From contig NZ_JACIFE010000001.1 in the NCBI RefSeq assembly GCF_014197255.1, forward strand, positions 62,001-126,000: a DNA stretch of 64,000 nucleotides, read 5' to 3'. The notes under the pieces are model-generated. The model saw only the letters and a list, made by a program, of their open reading frames with translations. It was not told the DNA's origin and searched no databases. Below are positions 8,734 to 63,480 of the stretch, one piece after another. The position numbers and the translations under genes are program-made. Each line of letters begins with the position of its first letter. Within the stretch, counting starts at the first letter, position 1. The stretch is from Bartonella fuyuanensis. Lineage in GTDB: Bacteria; Pseudomonadota; Alphaproteobacteria; Rhizobiales; Rhizobiaceae.

Positions 8734-9036
8734 ATGAAAATGATAGAACAAAATAGCGTCGATATAGCATTTAATCAAAAGGCAGCGCGAGAAGTTACAA
8801 TTGTAATGCGCTCAGAAAGGGAATGGTATTTTACATTTATTGCCGATGATCCAATCACCGGAAAACCAAATAAGTATACGCTTCTTACACAAAGAGGTAA
8901 ACTAAGGACTTGGGCCGATCCTAAATATCTTTTTAAATTTCTTCATGAGAGAGGTGTTCTTTGTGGAAATTTTAGTCTTAATCAGGATGAAACATATGAA
9001 ACAGTCAAATATTCTTCAAAAAATAATTCGAAATAA
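8734..9036 (+). CDS. korA: KorA-like regulator of the trw operon
   Basis: This 100-residue protein has the compact pattern of plasmid KorA-type proteins as I recall them: an R-E-V-T-I-V-x-R-x-x-x-E-W-Y-F-T-F segment, then D-D-P-I-T-G-K-P and L-L-T-Q-R-G-K-L-R-T-W-A-D-P. I see no obvious helix-turn-helix. It starts at ATG 8734 with GAGGG seven bases upstream. Its place between the VirB1-like gene and the first pilin gene is the korA position of pKM101/R388-type systems, where the product represses transfer-gene promoters. The 3' end overlaps trwL1 by 41 bases, so the two are likely co-translated. Assignment rests mainly on order and partial pattern memory. Confidence 0.62.
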   Translation: MKMIEQNSVDIAFNQKAAREVTIVMRSEREWYFTFIADDPITGKPNKYTLLTQRGKLRTWADPKYLFKFLHERGVLCGNFSLNQDETYETVKYSSKNNSK

Positions 9037-9313
9037 TGCTACTCAAATCTTTGCGGCTGTAAATGTATTTTTTATGGCATATCCTGTATGGGCCCAAGCG
9101 CAAGGTTTAGGAAAAGTAAAAGATGTTTTAGAAAAACTCAGTCAAGAGTTAAAAACAATTATCCCTATCGCTGCAGCTGTTATACTTTTGTGCTTAGCAA
9201 TCGGTTATGCGGGACGCTACATCGAAAAAGATACTTTCATACGGTGGGGGCTAGGTGTTATCATTGCAGGATCAGCAGCTGAGCTTGCAAACATGTTATT
9301 CACAAAAGGATAA
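8996..9313 (+). CDS. trwL1: TrwL1, VirB2-like pilin
   Basis: Major pilus subunit of the Trw system, 105 residues. A signal peptide ends near A-Q-A-Q at about residue 33. The mature protein has two hydrophobic segments around I-P-I-A-A-A-V-I-L-L-C-L-A-I-G-Y-A-G-R-Y, the charged turn E-K-D-T-F-I-R-W, and G-V-I-I-A-G-S-A. The frame is open back to 8945, but ATG 8996 has AGGA eight bases upstream and gives a proper signal peptide. It starts inside korA. The core is nearly identical at DNA level to trwL2-L4, while signal peptide, mature N-terminus and extreme C-terminus differ. Bartonella Trw pili are known to act in erythrocyte attachment. Confidence 0.9.
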   Translation: MKQSNILQKIIRNNATQIFAAVNVFFMAYPVWAQAQGLGKVKDVLEKLSQELKTIIPIAAAVILLCLAIGYAGRYIEKDTFIRWGLGVIIAGSAAELANMLFTKG

Positions 9314-9456
9314 ATAAGTATAAAGTTATACAGCATTAAAGTGTCTTTCTTATTCAAAGAATAACCTGAATTTTAAGAGATCTTATACATATTAATAAAA
9401 ACCATATGACAAAGAGATATTGTCCATAGCAACTGTAATCTAAATGGGGTAACAAT

Positions 9457-9768
9457 ATGAAACAATTAAATATTATTCAAATAGCGACCAATAAAAGCAC
9501 TTTTATCGCTCTTATGACAATTGCTTTTTTTGTAACGCATCTCATGGATGCTCAGGCAAGTTTAGCCCCTGCAAAAACTGCCCTAGAAGAACTTAAGAAA
9601 CAGTTGATTGGCATTGTTCCTATCGCTGCCGCTGTTATACTTTTGTGCTTAGCAATCGGTTATGCGGGACGCTACATCGAAAAAGATACCTTCATACGGT
9701 GGGCACTAGGTGTTATCATCGCAGGATCAGCAGTTGAGCTTGTTGATTTACTATTTAAAGCTAGTTGA
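9457..9768 (+). CDS. trwL2: TrwL2, VirB2-like pilin
   Basis: Second pilin copy, 103 residues, with a signal peptide ending near M-D-A-Q-A and the shared core from I-V-P-I-A-A-A-V-I-L-L-C-L to I-I-A-G-S-A. GGGGT lies eight bases ahead of the start. The mature N-terminus (S-L-A-P-A-K-T-A-L-E-E-L-K-K) differs from L1 and L3 but resembles L4. The stop codon lies at the join of a 22-bp tandem duplication (9742-9785), which defines the C-terminus A-S. Confidence 0.9.
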   Translation: MKQLNIIQIATNKSTFIALMTIAFFVTHLMDAQASLAPAKTALEELKKQLIGIVPIAAAVILLCLAIGYAGRYIEKDTFIRWALGVIIAGSAVELVDLLFKAS

Positions 9769-9785
9769 TTTACTATTTAAAGCTA
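9742..9785 (+). repeat. 22-bp perfect tandem duplication at the end of trwL2
   Basis: The unit beginning GTTGATTTACTATTTAAAGC and ending TA occurs twice back to back (9742-9763 and 9764-9785). The first copy encodes the last residues of TrwL2 and the stop codon falls at the start of the second. It looks like a recent slippage or recombination event that set the C-terminus. Confidence 0.9.
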
Positions 9786-9917
9786 CCGAATACGTTCTTT
9801 AAAAGATGATTTTTTATGTCAAAAAAAGCTTAAGTTTTAGTATTTTCATATATTAATAAAATTATTTCTTATTCTTCAGAAAAGCTATTTATACTAAATT
9901 TGATAAGATTAACCAAT

Positions 9918-10232
9918 ATGAAAAAAATAATTAATTTCCAATTGAAAAATAATAATAAAATTATCACAATTTCTGCAAACATAATTGTATATTTGATGAG
10001 TAGTTCTATGTCTGCTCAAGCACAGATGGCAAATACAGAGAGAGCTTTAAAGGCTTTACAGGAAGATCTGACTAAAAACATTATTCCTATCGCTGCTGCT
10101 GTTATACTTTTGTGCTTAGCAATTGGCTATGCAGGACGTTACATCGAAAAAGATACATTTATACGGTGGGCGCTAGGTGTTATCATCGCAGGATCAGCTA
10201 CCCAACTTACTGCGCTTTTATTCACGGGTTAA
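9918..10232 (+). CDS. trwL3: TrwL3, VirB2-like pilin
   Basis: Third pilin copy, 104 residues from the ATG at 9918. A TTG at 9900 is in frame but would put charged residues ahead of the signal peptide. The signal peptide ends near S-A-Q-A-Q. The core matches L1, L2 and L4 from P-I-A-A-A-V-I-L-L-C-L through E-K-D-T-F-I-R-W-A-L-G-V-I-I-A-G-S-A. Its mature N-terminus (M-A-N-T-E-R-A-L-K-A-L-Q-E-D-L) is its own. I see no strong ribosome-binding site ahead of the start. Confidence 0.88.
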   Translation: MKKIINFQLKNNNKIITISANIIVYLMSSSMSAQAQMANTERALKALQEDLTKNIIPIAAAVILLCLAIGYAGRYIEKDTFIRWALGVIIAGSATQLTALLFTG

Positions 10233-10372
10233 TGAAAATAATTACGTTTTAGTATAACACATAATGTTTTTAAATTTTATTAGTTATAGATGTATAGCAG
10301 GAATTAATATTATTTATTTTGCAAAAAGAGTATTATTTATAGAAATTTTAATTATCAAGAGGGATAAAAGAT

Positions 10373-10687
10373 ATGAAAAAGTTAAATATGTTCCAAGCAA
10401 AATGTAACAATAGGATCATTGCAACTTCTGCAGTTATAAGCGCCTTTTTCATAACGCATCCTGCATATGCGAATTTGGAGCCAGCTAAAAAAGCTTTAGA
10501 AAGGCTGAGGGATGATCTTATTGAACACATTATTCCAGTTGCTGCTGCTGTTATACTTTTGTGCTTAGCAATTGGTTATGCGGGACGCTACATCGAAAGA
10601 GATACATTTATACGATGGGCAATCGGCATTATCATCGCAGGATCAGCAACCCAACTTACTAAAATGTTATTTACAACTACTGCATGA
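10373..10687 (+). CDS. trwL4: TrwL4, VirB2-like pilin
   Basis: Fourth pilin copy, 104 residues, with AGAGGGAT about a dozen bases upstream of the ATG and a signal peptide ending near P-A-Y-A. The core reads A-A-A-V-I-L-L-C-L-A-I-G-Y-A-G-R-Y-I-E-R-D-T-F-I-R-W-A-I-G-I-I-I-A-G-S-A, with small changes from L1-L3. Its upstream region and first codons are close to those of trwL5, so the duplication that made L4 and L5 included the intergenic leader. Confidence 0.9.
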   Translation: MKKLNMFQAKCNNRIIATSAVISAFFITHPAYANLEPAKKALERLRDDLIEHIIPVAAAVILLCLAIGYAGRYIERDTFIRWAIGIIIAGSATQLTKMLFTTTA

Positions 10688-10813
10688 ATTAATATAACAC
10701 GTAATGTTTTTAAACATCCGTTTGTTACTAAGTATACACCAGTTAATAATGTCGCTCATATTGCAAAAAGGAATATTATTTATAAAAACATTAATCATAA
10801 TAGGATAAAAGAT

Positions 10814-11125
10814 ATGAAAAAGTTAAATACGTTCCGAGCAAAAGCATGCAACAAGATTAGCGTTACTGTTATCGCTTCAATTCTATTATTAATAACTCAA
10901 TCTGCTTATGCTCAAACAGGAACAAAAAGCTTAGATGTTTTTATAGGTATGCAGTATGGATTAAGTATCATTATTCCTATCTCTGCCGCCATTATTCTTT
11001 TATTTCTTTTACTTATTTACCTATTTCGTATTATCGCAAGAGCTACATTTATGCGATGGGCATTCAGTGTCATTATTGCTGGTGCGGCCTTCTATATTAG
11101 CCACATACTATTTAACATTCAGTGA
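10814..11125 (+). CDS. trwL5: TrwL5, divergent VirB2-like pilin
   Basis: Fifth and most divergent pilin, 103 residues. It keeps the MKKLN start and signal peptide of TrwL4 (ending near A-Y-A-Q) and the overall two-helix plan. The core is changed to I-P-I-S-A-A-I-I-L-L-F-L-L-L-I-Y-L-F-R-I-I-A-R-A-T-F-M-R-W, losing the G-Y-A-G-R-Y signature and the E-K-D turn. It seems to have escaped the homogenisation that keeps L1-L4 alike and may have a separate role, such as a specialised or non-polymerising subunit. That role is inference. trwM follows 12 bases after its stop. Confidence 0.87.
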   Translation: MKKLNTFRAKACNKISVTVIASILLLITQSAYAQTGTKSLDVFIGMQYGLSIIIPISAAIILLFLLLIYLFRIIARATFMRWAFSVIIAGAAFYISHILFNIQ

Positions 11126-11448: not shown

Positions 11449-13920
11449 ATGACAGCTGTTGAAAGCAGCAAACGTCTCGCATCAGAGACACCTGTAAGCC
11501 TGTTCCTTCCTTATTCACATCATGTTACAGATACGATTATCTCTACGAAGAATGCGGAGTATTTATCGATTTGGAGGATTGATGGACGTTCGCATCAAAG
11601 CGCTTCGGAAGAAGATATTTTTCAATGGACGAAAGAACTGAATAATGCTCTGCGCGGCATTGCATCAGCCAATTTATCATTTTGGACGCATATTGTACGC
11701 CGCCGTGTTTATGAATATCCTGATTCAACATTTGATCAAATGTTTTGCTATCAGCTTGATGAAAAATATCGCCAAAGTTTTATTGGTTATAATTTAATGG
11801 TCAATGATTTGTATCTGACTGTGGTTTTTCAACCGATAGCGGATAAAATTATGTCGTTCTTTTCTCAACATGAACGCGAAACACTTGACCAAAAAAATGC
11901 GCGACAAGATTTATGTATCAAAGAGCTCAATGACATCAATCGTACTTTAAGCCAATCATTAAAGCATTATGGTGCAGAACTTCTTGGTACTTATGAAAAA
12001 AATGGATATGCTTATTCTTCTGCACTTGAGTTCCTTGGAATGCTTGTCAATGCTGAATATCGTCCTATGCCAATTTGTTATGATCGTTTTGCTGACTATA
12101 TGGCTATCAATCGGCCTTTTTTCTCAAAATGGGGTGCTTTTGGTGAACTGCGAACAACCAGTGGAATACGTCGATTTGGAATGCTAGAAATCAAAGAATA
12201 CGATGTGACAACCAAACCAGGACAACTGAATAGTTTGCTAGAAAGTGATTTCGAATTCGTATTGACACAGAGCTTTTCAGTGCTCTCCCGACATGCTGCT
12301 AAAGACTATTTACAACGGCATCAGCGTAATCTTATTGATGCACGAGATGTAGCAACAAGCCAAATTGCACAAATTGACGAAGCACTAAACCAGCTTATAA
12401 GTGGGCATTTTGTCATGGGGGAACATCACTGCACATTGACTATATATGGAGAGACAATCCAGCAAATTCGCGATCATATGGCCAAAGCAAGTGCAGCATT
12501 ACTAGACGTTGGAGTATTACCCAAACCCGTAGATTTAGCGATAGAAGCCGGCTATTGGGCACAACTTCCTGGTAATTGGAAATGGAGACCCCGTCCTTCT
12601 CCGATTACATCACTGAATTTTTTATCATTTTCATCTTTTCATAATTTTATGTCAGGAAAACCTACTGGTAACCCATGGGGACCAGCCGTCACAATTCTTA
12701 AAACAACTAGTAAAACACCGCTTTATTTCAATTTTCATGCCTCTAAACTTGAGGAAGATTCGACCGATAAGCGGTTACTCGGCAATACTGCGCTTATTGG
12801 GCAATCTGGGTCTGGTAAAACTGTACTGCTTGGTTTTTTGTTAGCACAAGCACAGAAATTCAAACCAACGACTGTTGTTTTTGATAAAGATCGCGGCATG
12901 GAAATTGCTATTCGAGCGATGGGTGGAAAATATCTAACATTCAAGCCAGGTAGATCAAGTGGCTTTAATCCATTCCAACTTCCTCCCACCCAAGACAATC
13001 TGATCTTTCTGAAACAATTTGTTAAAAAATTAGCAGAATCTGGTGGTGAAATCACACATCACGACGAGGAAGAAATTAATCAAGCTGTTATGTCTGTTAT
13101 GAGCAATAACATTGACCAATCGCTGCGTCGTTTGTCTTTTCTAGTGCAATTCTTACCAAATCCGCACTTAAATGACTATAATGCACACCCATCTGTTCAT
13201 GCTCGCTTACTGAAATGGTGCGAGGGTGGTGATTATGGATGGTTGTTTGATAATCCCCGTGATGCTCTTGATCTCTCAACACATCAAATTTACGGTTTTG
13301 ATATTACGGAATTCTTAGACAATCTAGAAACTCGCACGCCGGTAATGATGTATTTGCTTTACCGCACTGAAGGTATGATTAGCGGACAGCGATTTATGTA
13401 TATTTTTGATGAGTTTTGGAAACCGTTACAAGACCCATACTTTGAAGATTTAGCAAAAAATAAGCAAAAGACTATCCGTAAACAAAATGGTATTTTTGTT
13501 TACGCGACCCAAGAGCCTAGCGATGCTTTAGAAAGTAATATTGCCAAAACACTCATTCAACAATGCGCAACTTACATTTTTCTAGCCAATCCCAAAGCAA
13601 ATTATGAAGATTACACAAAAGGCTTTAAACTAACAGATACCGAATTTGAACTCATTAAAGGACTTGGTGAGTTTAGCCGGCAATTTCTTATTAAGCAGGG
13701 CGACCAATCAGCACTTGCAGAACTAAATCTTGGTAAATTCCATGTGACAAGCGATGGAAACAACATTGAACACAACTTTAATGATGAGCTCTTAGTGTTA
13801 TCAGGTACCCCTGATAATGCAGAATTAGCCGAAAGCATTATTGCAAAAGTTGGTGATGATCCAGCAATATGGTTACCAGTTTTTTTACAGCACGTAAAAA
13901 ATAACAGGAGGGAAATATGA
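11449..13920 (+). CDS. trwK: TrwK, VirB4-like ATPase
   Basis: This 823-residue ATPase energises assembly of the Trw machine at the inner membrane. Walker A GQSGSGKT lies near residue 455 and a Walker B-like M-Y-I-F-D-E-F-W segment near residue 650, followed by the C-terminal A-T-Q-E-P-S-D-A motif. The N-terminal half is the CagE/TrbE/VirB domain. The ribosome-binding site AAGGAG is five bases ahead of the ATG. The length is normal for VirB4 proteins and no damage is visible. The stop overlaps the start of trwJ1 (ATGA). Confidence 0.96.
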   Translation: MTAVESSKRLASETPVSLFLPYSHHVTDTIISTKNAEYLSIWRIDGRSHQSASEEDIFQWTKELNNALRGIASANLSFWTHIVRRRVYEYPDSTFDQMFCYQLDEKYRQSFIGYNLMVNDLYLTVVFQPIADKIMSFFSQHERETLDQKNARQDLCIKELNDINRTLSQSLKHYGAELLGTYEKNGYAYSSALEFLGMLVNAEYRPMPICYDRFADYMAINRPFFSKWGAFGELRTTSGIRRFGMLEIKEYDVTTKPGQLNSLLESDFEFVLTQSFSVLSRHAAKDYLQRHQRNLIDARDVATSQIAQIDEALNQLISGHFVMGEHHCTLTIYGETIQQIRDHMAKASAALLDVGVLPKPVDLAIEAGYWAQLPGNWKWRPRPSPITSLNFLSFSSFHNFMSGKPTGNPWGPAVTILKTTSKTPLYFNFHASKLEEDSTDKRLLGNTALIGQSGSGKTVLLGFLLAQAQKFKPTTVVFDKDRGMEIAIRAMGGKYLTFKPGRSSGFNPFQLPPTQDNLIFLKQFVKKLAESGGEITHHDEEEINQAVMSVMSNNIDQSLRRLSFLVQFLPNPHLNDYNAHPSVHARLLKWCEGGDYGWLFDNPRDALDLSTHQIYGFDITEFLDNLETRTPVMMYLLYRTEGMISGQRFMYIFDEFWKPLQDPYFEDLAKNKQKTIRKQNGIFVYATQEPSDALESNIAKTLIQQCATYIFLANPKANYEDYTKGFKLTDTEFELIKGLGEFSRQFLIKQGDQSALAELNLGKFHVTSDGNNIEHNFNDELLVLSGTPDNAELAESIIAKVGDDPAIWLPVFLQHVKNNRREI

Positions 13921-14699
13921 AAAAGGTAATTATCGCAATAACAACAACAGCGATTTTAGGAATTCCAAGCTCAGCAATGGCTTGGTCTTGGGGAGCAGGA
14001 GCTGCTGATTTAAGTGCATCAGTTTCAACAGCTTGGCCCAATTGGGGTTGGGGTTCATCTTCAAATACATCAAAGCCTAAAAGTCCTTCTCCCAAAAAGA
14101 ACCTACCCAAAATACCGCCAGTTACTCCACTTATTGATATACTAAAAAAACAATTGGAGGAAACAAAAAAAGTACATAAGTCTATAACGGGAAGCAATAA
14201 ATTCGATCTTAAAAAACTTACAAACACACAAACAAATAACAGCAGTTTTTTTCTCAAGAATCCAGAAAATATCTATAATGAATCTAATAATTCAGATATA
14301 TCAACATCCGTTGCAAATATTACGCAAGCAGAAAATACTCTCACATCTCTCCAAGAATCTCGTAATGCTATCGATAAACGTATCCAATATGCAACAGTCG
14401 TTGATAAAGCAGTAAGTTTAAAAACTTTTCGAGAAGCAGATTATCGTTTTCAGCGAATTGAAGAACTATTAAACGAAATTAATACAACAAAAGACCTAAA
14501 AAGCGTTGCCGAGTTACAAGCACATATAATTGGAATGTTAGCTAAGATTCAAAATGAGACTACAAAATTACAAATGGTTTCCTATTCGCGCAACGCAGAA
14601 CAAGCGCTTATCAATCAACAAAAGCAAAAGCGGAACGCAAAAATTCTCAACAGTAACAATAAAAAAATGCCAACAATACGATACATGAGATCTACTTAA
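13917..14699 (+). CDS. trwJ1: TrwJ1, VirB5-like pilus-tip protein
   Basis: This 260-residue secreted protein is the VirB5 equivalent, thought to sit at the pilus tip and, in Bartonella, to contact erythrocytes. The signal peptide ends near S-A-M-A. The mature N-terminus is tryptophan- and glycine-rich (W-S-W-G-A-G), then proline- and serine-rich, then helical. The C-terminal 112 residues carry the family pattern (R-N-A-I-D-K-R-I-Q-Y-A to K-L-Q-M-V-S-Y-S-R-N-A-E-Q-A-L). From base 14361 onward the DNA is identical to the end of the broken trwJ3 at 17956-18294. It overlaps trwK by four bases. Confidence 0.9.
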   Translation: MKKVIIAITTTAILGIPSSAMAWSWGAGAADLSASVSTAWPNWGWGSSSNTSKPKSPSPKKNLPKIPPVTPLIDILKKQLEETKKVHKSITGSNKFDLKKLTNTQTNNSSFFLKNPENIYNESNNSDISTSVANITQAENTLTSLQESRNAIDKRIQYATVVDKAVSLKTFREADYRFQRIEELLNEINTTKDLKSVAELQAHIIGMLAKIQNETTKLQMVSYSRNAEQALINQQKQKRNAKILNSNNKKMPTIRYMRST

Positions 14700-14934
14700 T
14701 GACATTTTTATATTTATCTTCCCTATATCATTTGCCGCTCGTTTGTGTAAAGAACAGAGCACTACATGGTGTTTCTGTTCTCTCTTAACAAGCTAAAAGC
14801 TTTTCCAGAATTATAACCTCTGTCAGACCATACCAATGAAAAATTCTCAGCCGATATTCTGTAATGTCAATAAAACATTTACTCATGTTTCAAGATAATA
14901 TGAAACTACCAGTTCGTTAAAAAAGAGGAATACC

Positions 14935-15804
14935 ATGAACTTCACAATGTTCACACAACTTGTTAGCCGGATTGATGAGGCAACAAAAACATATGTCACA
15001 GATATTTCCTCAAAAGCAATCGCTATCATTACACCCTTCGTATCCGTAGGGCTCACCATCTCTTTCATCGTGTATGGATTGCTCATTATGCGTGGGGCAA
15101 TAGACATGTCACTCTCTGGATTCGTACACCGTTACTTGCGAACAAGTATTATTACTTCAATTGCATTATCTACCGGACTTTATCAGACTGAAATTGCAAA
15201 TTTGATAATAGACATACCCTATGAGTTAGCAGCTAAACTAATGAATAACCCACCAAATAACAACACACTAATCAGTTTAATTGACAAAGTCGCTGAACAA
15301 GGGTTTAGTTGTGCAAGCGAAGCTTTCGAAGAAGCTGCTTTTTTGGAAGCTAATGGGCTTCTGTATGGTCTCTTCGGTATCCTTATCTTGCTTATAACAA
15401 GTTTCCTAGCCGCAATTGGTGGAGCTTTCATTTTGATGGCAAAAATCGCACTTGTACTCCTCGTAGGGCTCGGACCACTCTTTATCATTGCTTTGCTCTG
15501 GCAACCAACCTATCGCTTCTTTGAGCAATGGATAGCCCAAATCCTAAGCTATACAATCCTCGTTGTACTCCTAGCCACCGTATTTAGTTTGATGATGGAT
15601 ATCTTTGCAAATTATGTAACCGATCTGAAATTCGATGGAAAGCAAAATGTGGGATATGCCCTTGGTGGTGCACTCATCCTATCTATTATCTCTATTGTAC
15701 TACTCCTCAAACTGTCAAATATCGCAAATGCTTTAGCAAAAGGCGTTACATTTAGATACCTATGGAGATTAGATACAACAGGCAACGCATCCCCCCCAAA
15801 ATAA
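14935..15804 (+). CDS. trwI1: TrwI1, VirB6-like inner-membrane channel protein
   Basis: This 289-residue polytopic membrane protein is the VirB6 equivalent, part of the inner-membrane substrate path. Five or six hydrophobic segments are visible: residues about 25-55, 63-85, 140-165, 168-190, 205-230 and 240-262. The conserved G-P-L-F-I-I-A-L-L-W tryptophan-containing motif lies near residue 180. AGAGGAA lies seven bases ahead of the ATG. The whole gene and its spacers are identical to trwI2 at 18530-19399. A 235-base spacer separates it from trwJ1, which is longer than elsewhere in the operon. Confidence 0.93.
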   Translation: MNFTMFTQLVSRIDEATKTYVTDISSKAIAIITPFVSVGLTISFIVYGLLIMRGAIDMSLSGFVHRYLRTSIITSIALSTGLYQTEIANLIIDIPYELAAKLMNNPPNNNTLISLIDKVAEQGFSCASEAFEEAAFLEANGLLYGLFGILILLITSFLAAIGGAFILMAKIALVLLVGLGPLFIIALLWQPTYRFFEQWIAQILSYTILVVLLATVFSLMMDIFANYVTDLKFDGKQNVGYALGGALILSIISIVLLLKLSNIANALAKGVTFRYLWRLDTTGNASPPK

Positions 15805-15992
15805 CACTGTCAAATAATCAATGAGACCTTTAAAATTATTTGCACTGAACGTGAATTATTTTCATAAATTAAAAAATAAAATTAATAAAAGATAAACTAT
15901 CGTAAACTATACACTTTACTTTATTATTAAAATTATAATAATGATAATAAATGTTAGACTTTATATCATTATCATAAAAGAGGCGCATTAAA

Positions 15993-16136
15993 ATGAAGTC
16001 GATCGTTTTTATAATTTTGATTATAAATACTTTATCAGCTTGTGCATTGGCACCAAAGCTAAAACAACCAAATGATAGAAACCGTGTACCTGTTAATAAA
16101 ACAATCCCCGCCGAAATCAAGCGAGCAATCATATGA
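15993..16136 (+). CDS. trwH1: TrwH1, VirB7-like lipoprotein
   Basis: A 47-residue lipoprotein, the VirB7 equivalent, expected to be lipidated and to stabilise the VirB9-like TrwF in the outer-membrane core complex. The signal sequence ends in the lipobox L-S-A-C, with cysteine near residue 16, followed by A-L-A-P-K. AGAGG lies about ten bases ahead of the ATG at 15993. It is too short for ordinary gene calling. The stop overlaps the trwJ2 start by four bases (ATGA). It is identical to trwH2. Confidence 0.88.
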   Translation: MKSIVFIILIINTLSACALAPKLKQPNDRNRVPVNKTIPAEIKRAII

Positions 16137-17116
16137 AAAAGTTATTTATTCTAATAGGAGCAATTGCATTTATTGGAGCACTAAATTCAACTCTAGCATT
16201 ATCTAAATCATCAAAAAAAGCGCTATCAAAAGCGTTACCACAGCATTCTTTTTCACAAGAAGAGGATTTTGATCTGCTGGGAAAACAAAAGACACTTGTT
16301 GGAACGTTAAATTCAGCCCTAGACATATCTAAAGCATTAAAATCAGCCCTAGACATATCTAAATCATTAAAACATTCTTCCTCTTCACAAGAATACCAAA
16401 AACAACAGGCGCTTATTGGAACACTAAACTCAGCTATAGGACTATCTGAGTCATTACTATCTTCATTACAAAAAGATCCTGCTAGTTTATTTCAAAAACA
16501 ACTTGAAATAAGCAAAAAGCAGCTTAAAAAAATCGAAGAAACATATAAATTTCTAGCAGGTGAGAAAGTAAATAAGAAAAAAAATAAAAACGTAAATAGC
16601 TTAGTGCTTGAAAAAAATAACCAAGATTTTTATTTTCAGAATCCGCAATTTATCTATGATAGAGATAAACAGAATAACATTTTTACCAATAATAGGGTTA
16701 CAGGCAAGAATGATATTGTGCAAGAGTTTAGTAGAGTTGTAAAAAGTGAAGTTTATCCTAAGAATTATACGAGCAATACTGTACGCACCATAATTACTAG
16801 ACGCAAACAATATGCAGATTTTATGGATAAAACTGTAGCTTTACGAGTTTTTTTAGAAATAGAAAATCGTTTTCGGCACATTGCGGAGACATTAGCCATT
16901 CTTGACCAAATGCAAGATCTAAAAAGCTTTGCTAAATTGCAGATACGTATGAATGAAATATTAGCTATGACCCAGAATGAAGCAACAAAATTACAAATGA
17001 TTGCGTATTCACGCACCCTTGAACAGGCACTTATTAACCGATTACAAAATATGCGCAATACAAAAATTCTTTCGAGCACAAATACAAAAATGCCTCAAAT
17101 AAGAAACACTCTATAA
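16133..17116 (+). CDS. trwJ2: TrwJ2, long VirB5-like pilus-tip protein with internal repeats
   Basis: This 327-residue VirB5-like protein is about 65 residues longer than TrwJ1. The signal peptide (MKKLFILIGAIAFIGA) is followed by repeated units: L-N-S-T-L-A-L-S-K, L-N-S-A-L-D-I-S-K-A-L-K, S-A-L-D-I-S-K-S-L-K and L-N-S-A-I-G-L-S-E. These form an amphipathic, serine-rich region over residues 15-120. The C-terminal 110 residues follow the TrwJ pattern (R-K-Q-Y-A-D-F-M-D-K-T-V-A-L to L-Q-M-I-A-Y-S-R-T-L-E-Q-A-L) but diverge clearly from TrwJ1, so this copy has not been homogenised. A terminator-like hairpin follows immediately. The repeats suggest a surface region that varies by slippage or recombination. 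Confidence 0.88.
   Translation: MKKLFILIGAIAFIGALNSTLALSKSSKKALSKALPQHSFSQEEDFDLLGKQKTLVGTLNSALDISKALKSALDISKSLKHSSSSQEYQKQQALIGTLNSAIGLSESLLSSLQKDPASLFQKQLEISKKQLKKIEETYKFLAGEKVNKKKNKNVNSLVLEKNNQDFYFQNPQFIYDRDKQNNIFTNNRVTGKNDIVQEFSRVVKSEVYPKNYTSNTVRTIITRRKQYADFMDKTVALRVFLEIENRFRHIAETLAILDQMQDLKSFAKLQIRMNEILAMTQNEATKLQMIAYSRTLEQALINRLQNMRNTKILSSTNTKMPQIRNTL
16313..16372 (+). repeat. two 30-bp tandem repeats inside trwJ2
   Basis: Two in-frame 30-bp units (16313-16342 and 16343-16372) differ at one base and encode S-A-L-D-I-S-K-A-L-K and S-A-L-D-I-S-K-S-L-K. More diverged relatives of the unit lie upstream near 16175 and downstream near 16425. Unit number could change without breaking the frame. 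Confidence 0.9.
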
Positions 17117-17144
17117 ACGGCTTATTCTATGCCGTCAGTTTTTT
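17117..17144 (+). terminator. terminator-like hairpin directly after trwJ2
   Basis: ACGGC (17117-17121) pairs with GCCGT (17131-17135) around a nine-base loop, followed after three bases by a run of six T (17139-17144). It begins at the base after the trwJ2 stop. The stem is only five pairs, so it may be partial. It lies inside the trw operon, upstream of trwI2-H2-G-F-E-D. Confidence 0.55.
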
Positions 17145-17344
17145 ATTTCTACTCTCAGGAGAATTCAAACCCATAGCATTAAATATTCCCTCAATATTCT
17201 AAAGAAACACACAAGAGGTTAATCCACCTCAACACAGTTTCAATAATAAAAAGTCCTGAGATAAATCGTATGAATGTAAAGAAACATACGCCCGTTTTTA
17301 AAGTCACAGAAAACTGAAAATACGAAAAGAAGAAAGAATAAAAT

Positions 17345-18294
17345 ATGAAAAAAACTATTGTTATCATAGCAATAAGTACGTTTTTTGGCATACCAAACTT
17401 AGCAAAAAGTGAAAATATTGCTGGTAAAACAAAAGGGCACTCTCGTATTCATCTACTTCCTAGTTTATCAGAAGATCTTGATTCAAGCAGTAGTTATAAA
17501 CTATAAAGAGCCACCGCTGGGAATAGCATCAAAAAAATACCATCAGGTTTTACACTGCCCGGAAGACTTAGAAAAAATTTAAATCCTCTCCTACATCTGC
17601 AACATCCACACCAACTGTGGTAGCTAGCTCAAATCCTGCATCTCAAGCATCTTCAGCGTCTATACCCAAATGATCCTCCAATATTGCTAATATTCTAAAA
17701 ACAATAGAGCAACAGAATAACGATAATAAGATATTGCATGATGTGTTTGAAAAAACGTATAAATCTATAACAGGTTCTCGAACTGAACTACAAGACTTAA
17801 AAAAATATGCTACATGAGACACCTGATTTTTTCTTCAAAATCCAGAAAATATCTATAAGAAAACCAAACATAAGAAAATGAATACAAAGGACTTAAACTA
17901 GATTGCAGAAATTAAGCAAGAAAAAGAACAGTATATCAGTAATATTGATAATTTACGTAATGCTATCGATAAACGTATCCAATATGCAACAGTCGTTGAT
18001 AAAGCAGTAAGTTTAAAAACTTTTCGAGAAGCAGATTATCGTTTTCAGCGAATTGAAGAACTATTAAACGAAATTAATACAACAAAAGACCTAAAAAGCG
18101 TTGCCGAGTTACAAGCACATATAATTGGAATGTTAGCTAAGATTCAAAATGAGACTACAAAATTACAAATGGTTTCCTATTCGCGCAACGCAGAACAAGC
18201 GCTTATCAATCAACAAAAGCAAAAGCGGAACGCAAAAATTCTCAACAGTAACAATAAAAAAATGCCAACAATACGATACATGAGATCTACTTAA
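17345..18294 (+). pseudogene. trwJ3: broken third trwJ copy, intact only in its 3' end
   Basis: An ATG at 17345 opens a signal-peptide-like stretch (MKKTIVIIAISTFFGIPNLA) that stops after 53 codons at 17504. Beyond it, TrwJ-like pieces can be followed through further stops and shifts: F-F-L-Q-N-P-E-N-I-Y near 17835, as in TrwJ1, then A-E-I-K-Q-E-K near 17910. From 17956 to the stop at 18294 the sequence is identical to trwJ1 and has no damage. The 5' half therefore decayed while the 3' half, part of the 1,779-bp repeat, did not. It cannot make a full protein. A short peptide or a store of sequence for recombination are the only roles I can suggest. Confidence 0.88.
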
Positions 18295-18529
18295 TGACAT
18301 TTTTATATTTATCTTCCCTATATCATTTGCCGCTCGTTTGTGTAAAGAACAGAGCACTACATGGTGTTTCTGTTCTCTCTTAACAAGCTAAAAGCTTTTC
18401 CAGAATTATAACCTCTGTCAGACCATACCAATGAAAAATTCTCAGCCGATATTCTGTAATGTCAATAAAACATTTACTCATGTTTCAAGATAATATGAAA
18501 CTACCAGTTCGTTAAAAAAGAGGAATACC

Positions 18530-19399
18530 ATGAACTTCACAATGTTCACACAACTTGTTAGCCGGATTGATGAGGCAACAAAAACATATGTCACAGATAT
18601 TTCCTCAAAAGCAATCGCTATCATTACACCCTTCGTATCCGTAGGGCTCACCATCTCTTTCATCGTGTATGGATTGCTCATTATGCGTGGGGCAATAGAC
18701 ATGTCACTCTCTGGATTCGTACACCGTTACTTGCGAACAAGTATTATTACTTCAATTGCATTATCTACCGGACTTTATCAGACTGAAATTGCAAATTTGA
18801 TAATAGACATACCCTATGAGTTAGCAGCTAAACTAATGAATAACCCACCAAATAACAACACACTAATCAGTTTAATTGACAAAGTCGCTGAACAAGGGTT
18901 TAGTTGTGCAAGCGAAGCTTTCGAAGAAGCTGCTTTTTTGGAAGCTAATGGGCTTCTGTATGGTCTCTTCGGTATCCTTATCTTGCTTATAACAAGTTTC
19001 CTAGCCGCAATTGGTGGAGCTTTCATTTTGATGGCAAAAATCGCACTTGTACTCCTCGTAGGGCTCGGACCACTCTTTATCATTGCTTTGCTCTGGCAAC
19101 CAACCTATCGCTTCTTTGAGCAATGGATAGCCCAAATCCTAAGCTATACAATCCTCGTTGTACTCCTAGCCACCGTATTTAGTTTGATGATGGATATCTT
19201 TGCAAATTATGTAACCGATCTGAAATTCGATGGAAAGCAAAATGTGGGATATGCCCTTGGTGGTGCACTCATCCTATCTATTATCTCTATTGTACTACTC
19301 CTCAAACTGTCAAATATCGCAAATGCTTTAGCAAAAGGCGTTACATTTAGATACCTATGGAGATTAGATACAACAGGCAACGCATCCCCCCCAAAATAA
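18530..19399 (+). CDS. trwI2: TrwI2, VirB6-like inner-membrane channel protein
   Basis: A 289-residue protein identical in every residue to TrwI1, with the same ribosome-binding site and spacers. It is the copy nearest trwG and may be the one kept in the ancestral J-I-H-G order. Its upstream neighbour is the broken trwJ3, so it has no functional trwJ directly ahead of it. Two identical copies could raise dosage or simply reflect a recent event. Confidence 0.93.
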   Translation: MNFTMFTQLVSRIDEATKTYVTDISSKAIAIITPFVSVGLTISFIVYGLLIMRGAIDMSLSGFVHRYLRTSIITSIALSTGLYQTEIANLIIDIPYELAAKLMNNPPNNNTLISLIDKVAEQGFSCASEAFEEAAFLEANGLLYGLFGILILLITSFLAAIGGAFILMAKIALVLLVGLGPLFIIALLWQPTYRFFEQWIAQILSYTILVVLLATVFSLMMDIFANYVTDLKFDGKQNVGYALGGALILSIISIVLLLKLSNIANALAKGVTFRYLWRLDTTGNASPPK

Positions 19400-19587
19400 C
19401 ACTGTCAAATAATCAATGAGACCTTTAAAATTATTTGCACTGAACGTGAATTATTTTCATAAATTAAAAAATAAAATTAATAAAAGATAAACTATCGTAA
19501 ACTATACACTTTACTTTATTATTAAAATTATAATAATGATAATAAATGTTAGACTTTATATCATTATCATAAAAGAGGCGCATTAAA

Positions 19588-19731
19588 ATGAAGTCGATCG
19601 TTTTTATAATTTTGATTATAAATACTTTATCAGCTTGTGCATTGGCACCAAAGCTAAAACAACCAAATGATAGAAACCGTGTACCTGTTAATAAAACAAT
19701 CCCCGCCGAAATCAAGCGAGCAATCATATGA
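19588..19731 (+). CDS. trwH2: TrwH2, VirB7-like lipoprotein
   Basis: A 47-residue lipoprotein identical to TrwH1, with lipobox L-S-A-C and the same AGAGG site ahead of the ATG. The stop overlaps the trwG start by four bases, exactly as trwH1 overlaps trwJ2. It is expected to pair with TrwF in the outer-membrane complex. Confidence 0.88.
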   Translation: MKSIVFIILIINTLSACALAPKLKQPNDRNRVPVNKTIPAEIKRAII

Positions 19732-20426
19732 AAACAAAACAAGCAAAACCAGTGAAAGCACAACAGCTTAGCAGTTATTATGAAGAAAGCCGAGGTTTAG
19801 AACGTGATCTCATAAATGAATTTATCAGATCGCGTAGAATTGCGTGGCGTGTAGCAGGTGCCGTTGGTCTTTTTGGCTTATTCGGTATGATATGTGGAAT
19901 CGTTGGTTTTTCCCAACCAGCCCCAACTCCCTTAGTATTACGGGTCGATAATACAACAGGTGCAGTTGATGTTATCTCCATCATGCGTGAGCATGAAACT
20001 AGCTATGGTGAAGTTGTAGATAGATATTGGCTCAATCAATATGTGCTTAACCGTGAAACTTACGATTACGATACCATTCAACTGAACTATGACACAACAG
20101 CACTTTTAAGTGCAGCAGCTGTTCAACAAGAATATTATAAAATCTATGATGGAGAAAAGGCACGAGACAAAGTGCTTTCCAACAAAGCCCGTATTACAGT
20201 TAAAGTACGATCGATTCAACCCAATGGACTCGGTCAAGCAACTGTACGTTTTACCACGCAACAACATGACAGCAACGGTGCAGCTGGACCAAAACAACAC
20301 CAGATCGCAACAATTGGTTACACCTATGTCGGTGCACCCATGAAATCATCTGATCGATTGCTTAATCCCCTTGGTTTTCAAGTAACAAGTTACCGTACTG
20401 ACCCAGAAATACTGTTGAATGATTAA
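19728..20426 (+). CDS. trwG: TrwG, VirB8-like bitopic membrane protein
   Basis: This 232-residue protein is the VirB8 equivalent, an inner-membrane assembly factor with a large periplasmic domain. A basic N-terminus of about 38 residues is followed by one membrane helix (residues about 40-62, V-G-L-F-G-L-F-G-M-I-C-G-I-V-G-F) and the NTF2-like domain, with V-L-R-V-D-N-T-T-G at its start and Q-Y-V-L-N-R-E-T-Y-D near residue 105. Its ATG overlaps the trwH2 stop. The first seven bases coincide with the end of the repeat, so the duplication junction lies at the start codon. Confidence 0.94.
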   Translation: MKTKQAKPVKAQQLSSYYEESRGLERDLINEFIRSRRIAWRVAGAVGLFGLFGMICGIVGFSQPAPTPLVLRVDNTTGAVDVISIMREHETSYGEVVDRYWLNQYVLNRETYDYDTIQLNYDTTALLSAAAVQQEYYKIYDGEKARDKVLSNKARITVKVRSIQPNGLGQATVRFTTQQHDSNGAAGPKQHQIATIGYTYVGAPMKSSDRLLNPLGFQVTSYRTDPEILLND

Positions 20427-24195: not shown

Positions 24196-25021
24196 CTGAT
24201 TGATAATGATAGTTTATTGTTGTACATGCTGAATGAATATCCCAAATAACATCAGATTCTCTCATTCCAAACCTGTTTATCTTGAATCAATCAAAACCAT
24301 ATCTTCACACATCATAAACAAGATTCCATATGGATAAAACTGTGCAAAAAAAGCTAAAAATACCTCTAATTAACCATCTTAAGCGGCAAAGGCCGTTCCA
24401 CATGAAAGATGGCAAAGTATATAATGAATGCCGATGTGTGCCTTGACAAGTGTCAAGATAGGCATAATCAATGGCTGTTTATATACCATTCATGGATACC
24501 ATCATGAAATGAGCTTGAAAGCTTTACAAGATATCTCGTAAAATAAGCTGGTGAATTGGCAACTGGGTGGCGTTCTGTTTTACTGAGGGTTGTGACCTCA
24601 TTAAAGAACGTGAAAAACAAAAGCGTGAAGCAATCTTCATTATTTAAAAGATATTGCTTTAGATGCCTTTGAAAGTCATAAAGCTGAATGAAAAAATGCT
24701 AGAAAAGATGGAAACTGGTTCTCTCCTTTACAACTTTATATCCTTCCCCAATTAGTCTGTCTGCTCGTTTCAGAGATTACGCAACCAGCGATATGCAATC
24801 CGTTCGCACCTATCGGGATACATAAAGTTGGTACAGTTGCTCATAAAACACTCAACCATCTTAATCTTTGGTTCAAACATGCAGAGGCATTAGGATTAAC
24901 TCTTGATTTACAAACAGTAAAAAAAGCACACGCTCAACTTAAAAAACAACGATATAAAACACAAAACTTACCAATAATAAATAAAAAAGATATGTCTACT
25001 TTCCATCAGATTGCGCTATAA
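24196..25021 (+). pseudogene. phage integrase remnant, best preserved copy
   Basis: A tyrosine-integrase N-terminal and core-binding region can be read through several shifts. The pieces are: H-E-M-S-L-K-A-L-Q-D-I-S near 24505; E-R-E-K-Q-K-R-E-A near 24605; D-A-F-E-S-H-K-A-E near 24663; then, after a TGA, one open stretch from about 24693 to 25018 with W-F-S-P-L-Q-L-Y-I-L-P-Q-L and L-N-H-L-N-L-W-F-K-H-A-E-A-L-G-L. This is the layout of phage integrases of the P4 type. The catalytic domain with its R-H-R-Y residues is absent. The AT-rich leader at 24196-24330 recurs ahead of the other remnants. No attachment-site tRNA is visible nearby. Confidence 0.82.
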
Positions 25022-63019: not shown

Positions 63020-63480
63020 TAATAATAGTTTATCATTGTTCCTATCACATTATAACTTTGAAAACTGTAAGATACTCTCATTCCAAATCTATTTATTATT
63101 AATGAATCAAAACCATACCCTAACAAAGCACAAACGGAATAAGTGTGTGAGAAAAACTATACAAAAAAGAAGTAAAAATACCTCTTATGAATCATTTCAA
63201 GTACCAAAAGCTATCCGTAACATTAGGAGCTGACAAATAGTGTGATAGTGCCTGCTTGTTCCTGCATAAGCATAAAAATGTGGACACTCAATAGCTTTAT
63301 CGTTACCCTATTCGACAAGCGCCATTGCAAACTGGGCTTATGCACTAAGAGATATTTCTTTCAAATAAGCACGTAAATTGGCAATCCAATGTTACATAAG
63401 GGACGTTGACCTCATTAAAGAATATGAGAAACAAAAACATGAAGCGATGCGTAAGCAGACTACTTACAATAAAGAATAAT
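63020..63480 (+). pseudogene. phage integrase remnant (leader and 5' part), copy 4
   Basis: A leader like that at 24196-24330 (CTCATTCCAAATCTATTTAT against CTCATTCCAAACCTGTTTAT) is followed by the N-terminal pieces K-N-T-S-Y-E, Q-V-P-K-A-I-R-N-I-R, then a C-L-F-L-H-K-H-K-N-type stretch near 63260, A-L-R-D-I-S near 63340, A-R-K-L-A near 63370 and D-L-I-K-E-Y-E-K-Q-K-H-E-A-M near 63410. Several shifts and stops interrupt it. The core-binding and catalytic parts are absent. Confidence 0.72.

Follow-up and report, generated by a model that had tools for sequence, protein, structure and literature searches.

Tandem or dispersed gene families such as rRNA operons are homogenised by gene conversion, and in Bartonella the copies of trwI and trwH were reportedly found by Nystedt et al. 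in 2008 to be kept alike within a genome. The literature describes trwJ, trwI and trwH as co-amplified, with trwJ and trwL diversifying (PMC2883598), and further papers taken together report that trwJIH copy number varies, that surface parts diversify and that the locus undergoes recombination (PMC10936683, PMC2610397, PMC3483213, PMC3610622, PMC2697382). A 2008 paper titled on trw concerted evolution is cited in PMC2883598, PMC2610397, PMC3483213 and PMC10936683. The Bartonella trw genes are reported to be colinear with the trw locus of plasmid R388 and, unlike R388, to lack trwB, which encodes the coupling protein (PMC2610397, PMC2883598).

We analysed a 64,000-nucleotide stretch of the Bartonella fuyuanensis genome (contig NZ_JACIFE010000001.1, hereafter the window), whose trw array contains an exact repeat covering the 3' end of trwJ together with trwI and trwH. 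An original prediction, made from the sequence alone, had noted that Bartonella trw genes are reported to be multiplied and to evolve in concert, and the 2008 title and the papers citing it agree with this. Concerted evolution of trwJIH is already known in print, and the additions made here are a trwJ with a dead head and a live-type tail, and a caution about assembly; no account of such a trwJ was found in the small sample of literature looked at, where the one paper combining the relevant terms (PMC2653234) is on Rickettsia. The array resembles the described ones in its co-amplified trwJ-trwI-trwH within the trw operon, in its diversifying trwJ and in trwI copies more alike within than between genomes, which was also measured here. 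It differs from them in that one trwJ is dead and its tail is homogenised with that of a live paralog, that trwJ2 has no trwI-trwH of its own, and that the evidence for identity comes from what is probably a short-read assembly. As in families of the rRNA-operon type, a conserved block is kept alike, with sharp ends where homology ends, but in the trw array variable heads directly adjoin the homogenised block. We consider it likely (probability about 0.85) that the units were duplicated long ago and that gene conversion or unequal crossing-over has homogenised them recently.

The exact repeat and the trwJ heads beside it

Self-comparison of the window, which is free of N, showed that 14361..16139 (copy A, + strand) and 17956..19734 (copy B, + strand) form a maximal exact repeat of 1,779 bp at an offset of 3,595 with 0 mismatches, as had been predicted. 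All 1,685 repeated 95-mers of the window fall in this repeat (1779-95+1), which excludes chance. Just outside the repeat ends, only 5 to 16 of 30 bases were equal (ungapped 30-base windows lying wholly outside). A search of the whole assembly with the repeat (E up to 0.001) returned only the two copies and one 67% match, the tail of trwJ2. The gene order was trwK, trwJ1, trwI1, trwH1, trwJ2, dead trwJ3, trwI3, trwH3 and trwG. Judged by the open reading frames (ORFs), each copy holds the 3' end of trwJ (339 nt), a spacer (235 nt), trwI (870 nt), a second spacer (188 nt), trwH (144 nt) and 3 bases of the next gene; its right end lies 7 bases into that following gene, whose ATG overlaps the trwH stop. 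If the copies are truly identical, their divergence is below 0.17% (95% bound).

The trwI and trwH reading frames in the repeat are intact, as expected if purifying selection alone kept the copies identical. However, identity is just as complete in the 235- and 188-nt spacers and in a dead gene's tail as in the codons, which leaves this explanation a negligible chance unless spacers and dead tail are themselves extremely constrained; the original prediction had likewise argued from the spacers that protein selection could not account for the identity. The case is a clean example of concerted evolution, in that a dead gene's tail is identical to that of its living paralog, inexplicable by protein selection.

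A very recent duplication of the J-I-H segment, also proposed in the original prediction, would account for perfect identity with spacers included, but a fresh tandem copy would bring its head and upstream spacer with it. Instead, the identity stops at 14361/17956, inside trwJ. The intact trwJ1 (13917..14699, + strand, 260 aa) consists of a unique head (13917-14360) and a tail within the repeat (14361-14699). The third trwJ (17345-18294, + strand) is a pseudogene whose head (17345..17955) carries several stops and a frame change: there are stops in each frame, no open frame runs across it, and its likeness to other trwJ genes shifts frame. Its tail is the first 339 nt of copy B. In a global alignment, the heads of trwJ1 and trwJ3 were equal at 208 of 432 aligned bases, and the best local piece reached 85% over 40 nt.

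The reference set for the heads and the shared tail was drawn from 33 other genomes and held 86 J-like open frames, each 180-450 aa long. The trwJ1 head matched 72 of the 86, and the 14 best matches shown were all the first J after trwK, whereas the dead trwJ3 head matched 50, with the last J of genome G034 best (118 summed bits; next 78). The shared tail matched all 86 frames; its 9 best matches were all first J's, by small margins (155-180 bits over the 14 shown). The third trwJ combines a dead head, closest to the last J of G034, with a tail of J1 type. The heads, though not the shared tail, have diverged between units and trwI-trwH have not. The two heads are old paralogs, each with counterparts of its own in other species. 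Duplication of the units is accordingly old, and homogenisation reached only the block downstream of the heads. A very recent duplication is therefore improbable, and one that copied only the stretch from J tail to trwH and placed it between old flanks would be the same thing as conversion. The prediction had left the choice between recent duplication and ongoing gene conversion; the second fits and the first is disfavoured by the heads. It also gave the contents of the duplicated block correctly, without mentioning that a pseudogene head, not an intact trwJ, lies upstream of the second copy.

The homogenised array probably arose as follows. A trwJ-trwI-trwH unit multiplied long ago, after which the trwJ heads diverged and the head at 17345-17955 died. 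The trwJ 3' end, trwI, trwH and the spacers of the first and last units were recently equalised by inter-copy recombination, which stopped rightward at the start of the next gene, where inter-unit homology ends, and leftward inside trwJ, because of the strong divergence of the heads. The sequence does not distinguish non-reciprocal conversion from cycles of unequal crossing-over. The trwJ-tail part of the block is of first-unit type, so the direction there was probably from J1 to the dead J3.

The block was further compared with the units of G034, setting aside gapped columns and sites matching neither unit. The two J tails of G034 still differ (61-66% alike per 100-base segment), and the window's J tail agreed with G034 unit 1 at 91 informative sites vs 25 (p 5.3e-10). 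In trwH, 20 sites agreed with G034 unit 3 vs 4 (p 0.0015), and the first third of trwI leaned weakly to unit 1 (45 vs 27, p 0.044). As the trwH end is more like the last G034 unit and the J tail like unit 1, the block was probably pieced together by at least two exchanges. It is conceivable, at long odds, that the identical J-tail/I/H blocks are homology arms by which trwJ heads recombine, the dead head being a silent cassette for pilus-tip variation; silent pilin loci would be the comparable system.

Likeness of trwI copies across the genus

TrwI was matched in 55 of 71 genomes of the genus (own included); among the matches listed, many are a separate VirB6-like gene with 26-31% identity to TrwI. 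Stretches were fetched from 34 other genomes, leaving out G017, G020, G049, G051 and G067, whose trwI matches were partial or scattered. A trwK-based contig scan, which may omit near records, showed no other isolate of the same species. The trwI comparison used 72 copies, taken from the window and from all fetched genomes but G013 (cut at a contig edge), hence 33 of the 34, with copies shorter than about 780 nt dropped. The results showed that in 17 of the 19 genomes with two or more long trwI copies these cluster as a single clade, and that the largest within-genome distance was smaller than the distance to the nearest other genome in 16 of 19. At least one trwI pair had no difference in 12 of the 19, the window included; the window's own distances were 0.000 within and 0.180 to the nearest other genome.

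Exact repeats of this kind were surveyed in 18 of 26 relatives (G018, G019, G029, G031, G034, G035, G052 and G070 excluded), skipping N; those seen in G018, G034 and G070 were dropped because they were runs of N. Among the 11 multi-unit relatives assembled in one or two contigs, the longest exact repeats measured 494-2,244 bp (G001, 1618; G006, 494; G021, 1626; G022, 759; G024, 2244; G025, 1993; G026, 677; G032, 981; G039, 997; G064, 2043; G066, 1652), and 3 of the 11 exceed 1,779 bp, so the window's repeat is within their range. Of the 18 arrays, 11 have a longest repeat whose start falls within a J gene, 25 to 622 nt ahead of that gene's stop, and 5 have one that starts outside any J (G006, G022, G026, G032, G039); in the other two (G050, G053), one repeat copy begins at a sequence edge. 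The G053 repeat is at least 1,387 bp, one copy ending at the contig edge and the other at the edge of the fetched stretch. The case is ordinary for the genus and well supported.

Several observations weigh against the homogenisation of old units. Not every genome shows homogenisation: the trwI copies of G009 and G024 do not form one clade, the same two and G066 depart from the distance pattern, and G021 and G034 contain broken trwI copies that have drifted. No significant preference for either G034 unit was seen in the J-I spacer, the middle and 3' thirds of trwI or the I-H spacer, and for most of trwI's second half the two G034 units are themselves 89-98% alike. With these central sites undecided, a direction of exchange is visible only at the ends of the block and against one relative. 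Finally, a repeat of 1,779 bp was very probably too long for the assembler to read through, and the identity may be a collapsed consensus.

The trwI core may also have been imported from another Bartonella lineage (Bartonella vinsonii-like) and then spread to both units. Both FastTree and IQ-TREE made this look attractive. The trwI of the window (14935-15804, 18530-19399) and G034 grouped with the vinsonii-type genomes G005, G009, G048 and G069 (95/86), next to G016 and G035 (91/93, not starred), unlike the trwK (28 genomes) and trwG-F (29 genomes) trees, which placed the window with the G024/G066 group. However, placing the trwI of the window and G034 with the G024/G066 group was not rejected by the approximately unbiased (AU) test (p 0.156; group chosen after the first tree). 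The closest trwI still differs by 18%, and old paralogs that had been retained would give a similar picture. Such an import is possible, though we hold it doubtful.

In 12 of the 34 fetched stretches (L074, L081, L086, L087, L089, L090, L091, L092, L096, L097, L102, L105), a piece of the trwG start is found again between units, mostly between a trwH and the next trwJ; it breaks off at codon 25-67, in most cases at 28-40. This recurrence suggests that the original tandem duplication ended inside trwG. DNA self-comparison of the window revealed no trwG remnant between its units; trwJ2 starts where trwG would.

Assembly of the repeat

The own genome consists of 81 contigs. No full-length EF-Tu gene and no collapsed EF-Tu contig was found in it, by a search that passed its cut-off in only 7 of 14 control genomes, so that absence alone is weak evidence. 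Four EF-Tu end fragments were found, all at contig edges (three at contig starts, one at the end of contig C36), and two independent pairs of these edges share exactly 95 bases each, which is the stronger sign. The broken EF-Tu genes and the two 95-base overlaps indicate that the genome is probably a k=95 de Bruijn short-read assembly unable to cross a repeat of EF-Tu length. The rRNA genes add little: no 16S was found in a search that was positive in 9 of 14 controls, one 23S was found (10 of 14 controls positive), and part of that contig is masked, so that rRNA copy number is uninformative on the assembly.

Such an assembler could cross a 1,779-bp repeat only via a simple graph loop, writing the same consensus twice, and the trw repeat was probably bridged by such loop unrolling. 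The perfect identity and the copy number were then not measured copy by copy, and we interpret 'perfect' here as copies that the assembler did not distinguish; that the chromosome carries exactly two copies with zero differences would go beyond this. The identity may even be overstated, if the assembler wrote one edge twice while unrolling the loop J1-R-(J2-dead J3)-R-trwG, where R is the repeat. Bubble popping would then have removed scattered differences, and more than one occurrence of the loop is possible. Along with the EF-Tu breaks and the 95-base overlaps, this is favoured by the trw repeat being the window's only tract of repeated 95-mers, far longer than 95, and by the contig-edge copy of a similar repeat in both G050 and G053. 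However, the heads and next genes flanking the two copies differ, and no other linear path through such a graph is apparent. Near-identity is to be expected in any case, given exact repeats of equal or greater length in relatives assembled in one or two contigs, and the EF-Tu search was imperfect. We regard overstatement by the assembly as a minority prospect. Where a Bartonella genome was assembled from short reads, a perfect repeat can be in part the assembler's product, and trwJIH unit counts and identities should therefore come from long reads.

Gene assignments and neighbouring sequences

Gene letters were taken from the literature and the original prediction. All of the following trw genes lie on the + strand, and the order K-J-I-H ... 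G-F-E-D is present. The left single-copy border of the array is trwK (11449..13920), a VirB4-like ATPase with TIGR00929 (NCBIfam) over cut-off. The VirB5-like trwJ1 has PF07996 over cut-off, with the VirB5 model below its own. VirB6-like trwI1 (14935..15804, 289 aa) is identical to trwI3 (18530..19399), the copy on which PF04610 was tested and lay over cut-off (18530-19396). Similarly, trwH1 (15993..16136, 47 aa) is identical to trwH3 (19588..19731), and this small gene in the VirB7 position is assigned by position, size and a sub-threshold Pfam match tested on the identical copy. The diverged but intact trwJ2 (16133..17116, 327 aa) has no Pfam match and is recognised by its J1-like tail, with 67% DNA identity to that of trwJ1, and by a VirB5 match that stays below the cut-off; no trwI or trwH of its own follows. 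The right single-copy border is trwG (VirB8; 19728..20426, PF04335 over cut-off), whose first 7 bases end the repeat, and the genes after it encode CagX, TrbI and T2SSE-type proteins (Pfam).

In Oligella ureolytica DSM 18253 (L062, 9744-12212), TrwK was 78% identical (best segment) to Bartonella TrwK; Pseudomonas TrwK matches in the same search reached 60%. The Oligella contig may be related to the plasmid from which Bartonella acquired its trw locus. Upstream of trwK, 8945-11125 of the window holds an array of five ORFs with a near-constant core and variable ends (best segment pair 94% identical over 130 bp), which look like trwL pilin genes. Further diverged direct repeats of about 74-75% identity were found in the window at 24254-24383 / 63070-63201 and 3-296 / 1004-1300.

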